Source of the DNA: Marinibacterium anthonyi
GTDB lineage: Bacteria; Pseudomonadota; Alphaproteobacteria; Rhodobacterales; Rhodobacteraceae
Assembly (NCBI GenBank): GCA_003217735.2
Contig: CP031585.1
Span: 4,327,501-4,391,500 of the forward strand
Length of the DNA stretch: 64,000 nt
Direction of reading: 5' to 3'
A program made the translations under genes and the position numbers. The notes under the pieces are model-generated. The model saw only the letters and a list, made by a program, of their open reading frames with translations, was not told the DNA's origin and ran no database searches. Within the stretch, counting starts at the first letter, position 1. Each line of letters opens with the position of its first letter. Below are positions 45,148 through 47,260 of the stretch, piece by piece.

Positions 45148-46215
45148 CTATGCCGTGGCCAGCATCGGGCGCGGCACGAACCCGTCCAGGGTGAACAGCC
45201 CCAGCGCCTCGACGACCTCCTGCCTGGTCGCATCGGTCACTGTGCGCGCCCGCTGGGTGCCGGCCCGGATGATCGACACCACGTGCGCCTCGTCGCGGGC
45301 GAATTCCAGCCGCCGCGCCCGGATCGGCGCGATCAGGTCCTGCAGGATCTCCTCCAGCCGGGCCTTGATCCTGCCGTCGCCCAGACCGCCGTGCCGGTAG
45401 TGCGCCTTCAGCTCCTCAAGCCCGGCCGTGTCGTCATCGAAGGCGTCGAGGTAGGTAAAGACCACGTTGCCCTCCACCTTGCCCGGATCCTCGGCCCGCA
45501 GGTGCCCCGGATCGGTGAACATCGCGCGCACGGCGGCGCGGATCTGGTCCGGCGTCGCCGACAACCGGATCGCGTTGCCCCCCGATTTCGACATCTTCGC
45601 CTTGCCGTCCACCCCCGGCAGCCGCCCCGCCTCGGGGATCACCGCCTGCGCCTCGGGCAGCACGTCGCTGCCGGCCGTCGCGTTGATCCGGCGCACGATC
45701 TCGTTGCACTGCTCGATCAATGGCGCCTGGTCGGCACCCACCGGCACCACCGTGGCCTTGAACGCGCTGATATCGGCCGCCTGCGCCGCCGGGTAGCACA
45801 GGAACCCCGCCGGGATGTCCCGCCCGAAACCGCGCGCGCGGATCTCGTCCTTGATGGTCGGATTGCGTTCCAGCCGCGCCACGGTGACAAAGTTCAGGTA
45901 CAGCATCGACAGTTCCGCCAGAGCCGGCAGGTGCGATTGCAGGCAGATCGTCGTCCGGCCCGGGTCGATGCCGACGGCCAGGTAGTCCAGCGCCACCTCG
46001 ACCACGTTGCGCCGCACCTTGTCGGGGTCGTTGGCATTGTCGGTCAGCGCCTGCGTGTCGGCCAGCAGCAGGTACTGGTCGTGGGTGTCCTGGAACGCCA
46101 GCCGGTTCTTCAGCGATCCGGCATAATGACCGATGTGCAGCGGCCCGGTGGTGCGGTCGCCGGTCAGGATCACGGGCCGTTCCGGCGGTGTTTCAGAAGG
46201 TTCGAAGCGGGTCAT
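45148..46215 (-). CDS. trpS: Tryptophan--tRNA ligase
   Basis: Charges tRNA-Trp with tryptophan in the cytoplasm. A 355-residue class I synthetase: HIGH-type motif GPLHIGHYAG (about 24-33), NPTIKDEIR, and KMSKS at 207-211 followed by GGN. The length is normal. The ATG follows AAGGAG. The leader carries a short Trp-rich peptide and a terminator hairpin, so transcription should rise when charged tRNA-Trp is low (see the attenuator entry). The gene is preceded by a cytochrome c gene on the same strand. Confidence 0.95.
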   Translation of the reverse strand: MTRFEPSETPPERPVILTGDRTTGPLHIGHYAGSLKNRLAFQDTHDQYLLLADTQALTDNANDPDKVRRNVVEVALDYLAVGIDPGRTTICLQSHLPALAELSMLYLNFVTVARLERNPTIKDEIRARGFGRDIPAGFLCYPAAQAADISAFKATVVPVGADQAPLIEQCNEIVRRINATAGSDVLPEAQAVIPEAGRLPGVDGKAKMSKSGGNAIRLSATPDQIRAAVRAMFTDPGHLRAEDPGKVEGNVVFTYLDAFDDDTAGLEELKAHYRHGGLGDGRIKARLEEILQDLIAPIRARRLEFARDEAHVVSIIRAGTQRARTVTDATRQEVVEALGLFTLDGFVPRPMLATA

Positions 46216-46260
46216 GGATAGGGATCTCCTTGGGGATGGAGGCTCGCCGCACCGGATCAG

Positions 46261-46321
46261 CTGAAATGAAAAAGGCCGCCCATGCGGCGGCCCATACTTA
46301 CGATGAAACGTCTGGCCGCCC
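46261..46321 (-). promoter_or_regulatory. trpS transcription attenuator: antiterminator and terminator
   Basis: On the minus-strand transcript, GGGCGGCC (46314-46321, segment 2) can pair with GGCCGCC (46286-46292, segment 3) as antiterminator. Segment 3 instead pairs with GGCGGCC (46274-46280, segment 4) to form a terminator with loop GCATG, followed by TTTTT (46269-46273) and CATTT. The layout is that of classical amino-acid attenuators. Confidence 0.85.
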
Positions 46322-46323
46322 TG

Positions 46324-46371
46324 TTACCAGGACTGCCACCAGCGATTTGCAATGATCGACGCGCGTTTCAT
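46324..46371 (-). CDS. Tryptophan leader peptide of trpS
   Basis: A 15-residue frame, MKRASIIANRWWQSW, with three Trp codons among the last five, including a tandem pair, and a TAA stop directly before segment 2 of the attenuator. A ribosome stalled on TGG-TGG would leave segment 2 free to pair with segment 3 and prevent termination. No strong Shine-Dalgarno precedes the ATG. The composition (three Trp in fifteen codons, in the correct place) makes chance unlikely. Confidence 0.85.
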   Translation of the reverse strand: MKRASIIANRWWQSW

Positions 46372-46414
46372 GACTGCAGGATTAGGCCCATGACCATGCC
46401 TCGTCAACCGCGGA

Positions 46415-47260
46415 TCACCCGTCCGACAGGGGCGGCAGGCTGCGCAGGTACAAGACGATGGCATCCAGGTCCTGCAGCGTCATCCGCGCCAGGTACCCGT
46501 AGGGCATCGGCGGCAGCATCGGCTCGCCGTCCGGGCGCTTGCCGTCCACGATCATCGCCTTGATCTCGTCATCGGCATACTCCGCCAGCCCGTCCTCGCT
46601 GCTGGTCAGGTTATGCGCGACCGACACGCCCCAGGGCCCGTGAAATTCGAACCCGCCCCGGCCAAGGTCGGTGTCCACCATCGGCCCCTGCGGCCCCATC
46701 GGGGTGTGGCATTCCATGCAATGCGCCAGCGGGCCGGCCAGGTATTCGCCATATTCCACCGTCAGCCCCGCCGGCACCTCGGCCACGCTTTCCACCGGCG
46801 GCCCGTAGGCCGGGGGCAGCGGGATATTGTATTCCGACGCCCCGGCATCGTTTTCGACCGGGTCCATCACCCGCAGAAAGGCCACGATGGCGGCCAGGTC
46901 AGTGTCGGAAATCCGCCGGTAGAAGGTGAACGGCATCGGCGGCCCGATCACCGACCCGTCGGGCCGGATCCCCTCGCGGATCGCGCGGGCCAGTTCGGCA
47001 TCCGACCAGTCGGCGATCCGGCTGGCGGGCGTGATGTTGGGGGCGACGGCCGTGAACATCGGGTTCTTCTCGACCAGCCGCCCGGCCAGCTCCATCCCGG
47101 CAACCGGGCCTTCGGGCCCCAACGGCGTATGGCAGTTCCCGCAGCCCATGATCCCGCGCACCAGGTATTCCCCCCGGTCCAGCACGGCATTCGCCGATGC
47201 CTGCGCCGCAATCAGTCCGGCAACGGCCATCGCCGCCGCCCTCAGTCCCCCCGTGACCAT
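46415..47260 (-). CDS. Periplasmic di-heme cytochrome c
   Basis: An exported protein of 281 residues with a signal peptide (about 1-24) and two cytochrome c domains. Heme sites are CGNCH at 40-44 and CMECH at 181-185, each followed by TP-GP; probable axial Met are in PPMPFTFY and PPMPYGYL. The twin-domain arrangement resembles the cytochrome subunits of alcohol/aldehyde dehydrogenases or nicotinate dehydrogenase. No dehydrogenase subunit is next to it. The ATG at 47260 follows GGAGGGACC. Confidence 0.88.
   Translation of the reverse strand: MVTGGLRAAAMAVAGLIAAQASANAVLDRGEYLVRGIMGCGNCHTPLGPEGPVAGMELAGRLVEKNPMFTAVAPNITPASRIADWSDAELARAIREGIRPDGSVIGPPMPFTFYRRISDTDLAAIVAFLRVMDPVENDAGASEYNIPLPPAYGPPVESVAEVPAGLTVEYGEYLAGPLAHCMECHTPMGPQGPMVDTDLGRGGFEFHGPWGVSVAHNLTSSEDGLAEYADDEIKAMIVDGKRPDGEPMLPPMPYGYLARMTLQDLDAIVLYLRSLPPLSDG

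Follow-up and report, generated by a model that had tools for sequence, protein, structure and literature searches.

A predicted tryptophan attenuator in front of an auxiliary tryptophanyl-tRNA synthetase gene of Marinibacterium anthonyi and its counterparts in other bacteria

The trpS2 locus and its leader

The window considered here, a stretch of 64,000 nucleotides from Marinibacterium anthonyi, contains on its minus strand a gene for a class I tryptophanyl-tRNA synthetase (TrpRS) of 355 amino acids (45148..46215), referred to as trpS2 in the following, whose HIGH and KMSKS motifs are unbroken and which is preceded by the Shine-Dalgarno sequence AAGGAG (46226..46231). Upstream on the same strand lies a cytochrome c gene with its stop codon at 46415, and the interval between both genes harbors a leader, to which all following minus-strand coordinates refer. 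Its open reading frame encodes MKRASIIANRWWQSW in 15 codons, starting with an ATG at 46371 and closing with a TAA that ends at 46324 (46324..46371). Codons 11 and 12 are the tandem Trp codons TGGTGG (46336..46341), which are kept in 18 of 18 rows of the relatives' alignment, and a third TGG of the leader ORF occupies 46327-46329.

In the minimum free energy structure, segment 1, TGGCAGTCCTG (46328..46338), pairs with segment 2, CAGGGCGGCCA (46313..46323), if the leader is untranslated. Segment 3, GGCCGCC (46286..46292), is supported by pairing counts in relatives, and segment 4, GGCGGCC (46274..46280), by pairing counts and a terminator scan; segment 4 is the 3' arm of an intrinsic terminator that ends in a U-run of five T residues (46269..46273). 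The terminator was recovered by an independent scan with eight base pairs, seven of them G-C (0.1 in shuffles). Two further stretches are complementary to parts of this arrangement, namely CGTTTCAT (46303..46310), complementary to nucleotides 1-8 of the leader ORF (ATGAAACG), and TGCGGCG (46245..46251), which is located 3' of the terminator and exactly complements the CGCCGCA of segment 3. The locus displays the hallmarks of a classical attenuator, a short leader ORF with tandem Trp codons as well as a 2:3 antiterminator and a 3:4 intrinsic terminator that are mutually exclusive. A preceding sequence-only reading had described the minus-strand leader peptide, the stop codon, three competing segments and the U-run, all of which are present at the positions given, the core of segment 2 being GGCGGCC at 46314-46320 (GGGCGGCC when counted from 46321).

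Folding of the leader is more stable than that of 199 out of 200 shuffled sequences (z -2.2). When the 64-kb window was searched for an ATG-initiated ORF with TGGTGG, a stop codon, a GC-rich hairpin with U-run and a pre-hairpin segment complementary to the first arm, this leader was the sole site, and the pattern was absent from 100 sequences of 64 kb simulated with a first-order Markov model, both strands included. The attenuator pattern is not a chance product.

A second TrpRS beside the housekeeping enzyme

The genome encodes two TrpRS, and the enzyme of the window is 29% identical to the housekeeping one. A structure-chain search returned TrpRS II of Deinococcus radiodurans as the nearest solved structure (1yi8, E 2e-113), followed by the next best bacterial TrpRS chain at 8e-61, while typical housekeeping chains scored about 1e-33. 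By its sequence, the window gene is thus a member of the auxiliary TrpRS II type. The earlier designation as trpS was correct in that a synthetase gene lies downstream of the leader, but it is not the sole trpS, as a separate housekeeping TrpRS exists in the same genome. The Deinococcus enzyme is likewise an auxiliary TrpRS, but it has been studied as a partner of nitric oxide synthase, and the accessible portion of the work on it contains no mention of attenuation.

TrpRS of the window type are present in only 14 of 395 Rhodobacteraceae genomes, all 14 of which show at least one further TrpRS match, and trpS2 is therefore an accessory gene in this family. As one tRNA-Trp gene was found in the genome, both TrpRS probably charge the same tRNA-Trp. 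No Trp leader was found in the region upstream of the organism's own housekeeping trpS, and none was detected in front of its own trpE (L141), unlike in rhizobial trpE(G). Since the genome has a separate housekeeping TrpRS, for which no Trp leader was detected, the attenuator would induce the auxiliary enzyme whenever charged tRNA-Trp is short, irrespective of the cause. In Bradyrhizobium valentinum (L023, genome G794), two window-type TrpRS genes occur along with further TrpRS matches.

Conservation of the leader in relatives

Relatives were drawn from named genomes and from others that belong to the family and the class of M. anthonyi. In nearly every alphaproteobacterial copy the gene is preceded by a leader of 15-16 residues, in which two to four codons separate WW from the stop; the WW codons and their spacing to the stop codon are kept. 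Within the Rhodobacteraceae the leader peptide is nearly fixed as MENTxIIAMTWWLAS, whereas across lineages the peptide shows little conservation apart from W/WW. Leaders of type A, found in Rhodobacteraceae, Mesorhizobium, Bradyrhizobium tropiciagri and others, show pairing of segments 2 and 3 in 94% of the cells counted (slid controls 28-69%) and of segments 3 and 4 in 100% (slid controls 29-71%). The G-C arms show so little variation across type-A leaders that covariation is sparse; in relative L088, a G-C pair of the 2:3 helix is replaced by A-U, with 3:4 pairing kept as U-G. The comparison with relatives thus bears out the initial proposal, in that WW, 2:3 and 3:4 pairing are retained. In the Vineibacter copy (L018), segments 2-4 are kept while the Trp codons of the leader are lost, a constellation that marks a decaying attenuator.

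A covariance model built from 19 alphaproteobacterial type-A leaders was run over the 395 Rhodobacteraceae genomes and yielded, at E<=1e-6, one match in each of 11 genomes, all of them in front of trpS2. No significant match was obtained at 16 other Rhodobacteraceae housekeeping trpS loci, at the organism's own housekeeping trpS or at its own trpE. The same model, built on alphaproteobacterial sequences, places betaproteobacterial leaders correctly, with weak scores.

The additional complementarities were followed in the same manner. TGCGGCG is paired with segment 3 in 86% of the cells counted in type A (slid controls 17-53%). In many relatives the first bases of the leader are complementary to the stretch after segment 2, and across type A this complementarity amounts to -7.7 kcal/mol for true pairs versus -5.6 kcal/mol for swapped ones, with mixed results overall. 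An extra stem CGTTTCAT:ATGAAACG, which would close off the leader start codon, is possible, the comparison being suggestive only.

Upstream of the leader, a -35-like TTGACG (46402..46407) and a -10-like TAATCC (46379..46384) are separated by a 17-nt spacer, the latter element ending 7 nt before the leader ATG. In nearly all type-A relatives TTGAC recurs at this distance from the ATG, about 17 nt ahead of a TA-rich -10 element that ends 7 nt before the start codon. A generic promoter scan did not call a promoter at 46379-46407, where the match to the consensus is weak. Judging by the spacing, the leader ATG or a position directly adjoining it is the probable transcription start, and because of this predicted start the leader ORF would be near-leaderless. 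Such an architecture has precedents: the trpL leader ORF of Sinorhizobium meliloti was shown to be leaderless (PMC7298713), and trpL2 of Streptomyces lividans, located in front of trpS, was reported to be leaderless as well (PMC8079986).

Predicted switching and proposed mechanism

When the complete leader was folded at equilibrium, the terminator prevailed in every case, even with a stalled ribosome, and no switching was seen; the switch would therefore depend on the co-transcriptional order of events, as in other attenuators. For this reason, folding was repeated on RNA cut just after segment 3 and before segment 4, using a ribosome mask that reaches 12 nt past the first base of the A-site codon. 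Under these conditions the mean predicted probability of 2:3 pairing over 18 leaders was 0.12 in the untranslated state and 0.94 when a ribosome was stalled at either of the W codons, and it amounted to 0.35 with the ribosome at the stop codon, the corresponding values for the window leader being 0.00, 0.99 and 0.33. The competing 3:4 hairpin has a predicted stability of -15 to -19 kcal/mol in the 18 leaders.

These features suggest a mechanism in which transcription would begin just 3' of the cytochrome c gene, at or beside the leader ATG. With plentiful charged tRNA-Trp, the ribosome would proceed to the stop codon and cover segment 2, so that segments 3 and 4 could pair and transcription would terminate at the U-run. 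On the other hand, a shortage of charged tRNA-Trp would stall the ribosome on TGG TGG, where it covers segment 1, and the resulting 2:3 pairing would allow polymerase to enter trpS2. An untranslated leader would adopt the 1:2 and 3:4 fold and likewise terminate. In this way, the auxiliary synthetase would be held in reserve and made upon failure of the housekeeping TrpRS or of the Trp supply, for instance in the presence of an inhibitor of the housekeeping enzyme. Judged from sequence comparison and modelled folding, a ribosome-mediated Trp transcription attenuator that controls an auxiliary, inducible TrpRS is the most probable reading of the locus, with a probability of about 0.88. Hence, anatomy, conserved pairing and the predicted switch lend good support to attenuation as initially suggested, while the statements on the gene and on the rarity of the arrangement have to be corrected.

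Distribution across bacteria and type-B leaders

The use of such an attenuator on a TrpRS gene had been regarded as unusual in an alphaproteobacterium, a notion that does not hold, since the same leader-synthetase arrangement occurs in alpha-, beta- and gammaproteobacteria, Deinococcus and Actinobacteria, and a precedent from Streptomyces is published. W/WW leaders with a hairpin precede TrpRS II genes in relatives from Massilia, Herbaspirillum, Burkholderia and Duganella (some with a single W), in Variovorax, in plasmid-labelled records of Klebsiella, E. coli and Salmonella, on plasmids of Rhizobium, Agrobacterium, Methylocystis and Roseibium, in Acetobacter (single W) and in records of Bosea, Vibrio, Streptomyces and Rhodococcus. 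The homologue of Deinococcus sp. KNUC1210 (L149) features both a WW leader and a terminator. A WW leader is also present in the Salmonella homologue (L146), where the sRNA isrQ, an Rfam match at L146:171-332, is oriented divergently to the leader (~329-490) and starts right at it. At the plasmid-borne TrpRS II genes of Staphylococcus and Enterococcus (L154, L155), neither a W leader nor an Rfam match to a T-box was found, and a gene for MFS efflux lies downstream of the staphylococcal copy.

A second group of leaders, type B, comprises Microvirga, Rhizobium, several Bradyrhizobium, Pseudolabrys and Paraburkholderia (L007, L014, L017, L021, L023, L024, L027, L115-L117). These keep the W/WW leader as well as the 1:2, 2:3 and 3:4 hairpin and are devoid of a U-run. 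Moreover, a conserved GGCGGC stretch adjoins the Shine-Dalgarno sequence of trpS, and the Shine-Dalgarno region appears able to pair with the stretch that contains GGCGGC. This suggests that type-B leaders may act by translational control, for which the simple logic would predict a sign opposite to expectation. Column counts in type B give no support for a helix sequestering the Shine-Dalgarno sequence, though individual leaders look convincing.

Leader retention and the second TrpRS

When TrpRS were counted per genome and leaders called, partly by eye, a leader was present in 56 of 63 cases with a second TrpRS in the genome (7 without), as opposed to 3 of 45 cases in which TrpRS II is the sole enzyme (42 without). 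In a quick tree of 109 proteins, which has many weak forks, changes in the leader and in the second TrpRS coincide in sister groups. Cupriavidus basilensis, with two enzymes and a leader, contrasts with five Cupriavidus that possess one enzyme and no leader; leader and housekeeping TrpRS are jointly absent from Herminiimonas as compared to Herbaspirillum; and Undibacterium terreum differs from two other Undibacterium in the same way. A phylogeny-aware sign test comprised 6 contrasts, of which a mean of 5.2 pointed in the same direction and 0.1 in the opposite one (median p 0.06). Retention of the leader in connection with a second TrpRS is consistent with these data, which are not decisive. 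The 0.9-Mb alphaproteobacterial genome L140 is an exception, as its single TrpRS belongs to the TrpRS II family and is nevertheless preceded by the WW leader MINISSYFSFLVWWRR.

A reading that we consider rather probable is that TrpRS II constitutes a horizontally spread backup module, distributed over proteobacterial classes, Deinococcus and Actinobacteria with the attenuator as part of the package, and that the attenuator is lost, rendering expression constitutive, once the housekeeping TrpRS has been lost. If this applies, a Trp attenuator would mark auxiliary synthetases induced by stress or inhibitors. The repeated co-absence of leader and housekeeping enzyme in Cupriavidus, Herminiimonas and Undibacterium provides natural experiments on the way in which regulation tracks gene redundancy.

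Relation to known attenuators

Ribosome-mediated Trp attenuation of an auxiliary trpS was published for Streptomyces by Vecchione and Sello in 2010, according to the title cited in PMC4787780, and an attenuator was predicted for trpS2 of S. avermitilis (PMC1262725). The present system resembles this case in the ribosome-mediated Trp attenuation, here predicted, of a second trpS, which stands beside a housekeeping TrpRS gene and is the only one of the two with a Trp leader. A Streptomyces plasmid homologue (L152) further shares with Rhizobiales leaders a 1:2 hairpin that spans the stop codon, its leader being MHLSSCLSWWRSS. Differences lie in the phylum, in the enzyme (about 40% identical) and in the sequences of segments 3 and 4; the present case, moreover, is known from sequence. 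As attenuation of an auxiliary TrpRS has already been published for Streptomyces, the kind of system is known, and what appears to be new is the breadth of the attenuator and its conditional retention. Neither its alphaproteobacterial and cross-phylum extent nor its link to a second TrpRS was found described in the literature searched, which excluded most subscription journals. A special case in Streptomyces could thereby become a pattern that may span phyla. It illustrates a way for cells to hold back a second synthetase, which may be inhibitor-proof, as long as tRNA charging is intact.

Other attenuators share part of these features. With trpL of E. coli (RF00513), the leader has in common a WW pair separated from the stop by three codons, a set of three segments that compete for pairing, and the U-run, but it controls a synthetase rather than biosynthesis, and its ORF is near-leaderless and without a Shine-Dalgarno sequence. 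No Rfam family matched the leader at its gathering cut-off; the Trp_leader model RF00513 aligned over its full length (model positions 1-100) with 25 bits, below its cut-off of 41, which leaves the leader outside that family. No T-box was matched either, neither at gathering cut-off nor among the Rfam matches with E<=1. The trpLE(G) system of S. meliloti (rnTrpL/peTrpL, PMC7298713) is likewise an alphaproteobacterial Trp attenuator with a leaderless leader ORF, of 14 amino acids, but is located in front of trpE(G), whereas the window leader precedes trpS2. The gammaproteobacterial pheST attenuator, so named in PMC1262725, is comparable as leader-peptide attenuation of an aminoacyl-tRNA synthetase, but responds to Phe and concerns a housekeeping enzyme. 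In the alphaproteobacterium Caulobacter crescentus, ribosome profiling located a small leader CDS before trpS (PMC4117421), but the part of that report available to us makes no claim of Trp attenuation.

Physiological role and alternative explanations

The hairpin lies about 120 nt past the cytochrome c stop codon on the same strand and could in principle be no more than the terminator of that gene, with the small ORF arising by chance; this is hardly credible, as it is contradicted by WW and its distance to the stop being conserved to the codon before trpS2 in other genera and by the absence of the pattern from the simulations. By analogy with rnTrpL/peTrpL of Sinorhizobium, the leader RNA released by termination, or the peptide it encodes, might also act in trans, since a near-leaderless small ORF with a terminator would release a small mRNA resembling rnTrpL (PMC7298713). 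Such an additional function is improbable, given that the peptide, although nearly fixed in Rhodobacteraceae, varies between lineages outside W/WW.

If the locus is an attenuator of an auxiliary TrpRS, as favoured here, two purposes come into consideration. According to one of them, the leader simply raises total TrpRS at Trp scarcity, the second enzyme being nothing special. This homeostatic purpose follows the logic of trp operons and agrees with the approximately 2-fold increase of Salmonella trpS2 (STM4508) in biofilm, where trp genes rose as well (PMC2805695), the Salmonella homologue being one of those with a WW leader. It is nonetheless somewhat doubtful, since it leaves unexplained why the leader is usually absent where TrpRS II is the sole TrpRS and why the organism's own trpE is devoid of a Trp leader. 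The other purpose, which we tentatively entertain, adds a specific physiological reason to the same mechanism, namely selection for resistance to natural indolmycin-type inhibitors of TrpRS: such a drug would block the housekeeping enzyme, Trp-tRNA would fall, the attenuator would open and an insensitive TrpRS II would take over.

Several observations bear on this role. Positions H43, Q9, D132 and Q147 were assigned with a ruler sequence that we take to be that of B. stearothermophilus TrpRS. The position of H43 is occupied by Q in 122 of 122 members of the TrpRS II family and by H in all 17 housekeeping enzymes (17/17), and that of Q9 by R in 122/122 family members. In B. stearothermophilus numbering, H43 is a determinant of indolmycin binding, and H43N confers resistance (PMC4899734). 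The auxiliary TrpRS of Streptomyces is indolmycin-resistant (PMC9437257, PMC6804068), the Streptomyces plasmid homologue carries a closely similar WW leader, and plasmid-borne copies of TrpRS II exist. On the contrary, D132 and Q147 are unchanged in the TrpRS II family, and the same replacements of H43 and Q9 occur in bacteria that have no TrpRS besides TrpRS II (Acinetobacter, some Cupriavidus), which makes them characteristic of the family as a whole, so that they do not prove resistance. A role of the window TrpRS in resistance is plausible, and the change from H43 to Q in enzymes of its type is consistent with insensitivity to indolmycin, again short of proof, while providing a clear prediction on inhibitor sensitivity.
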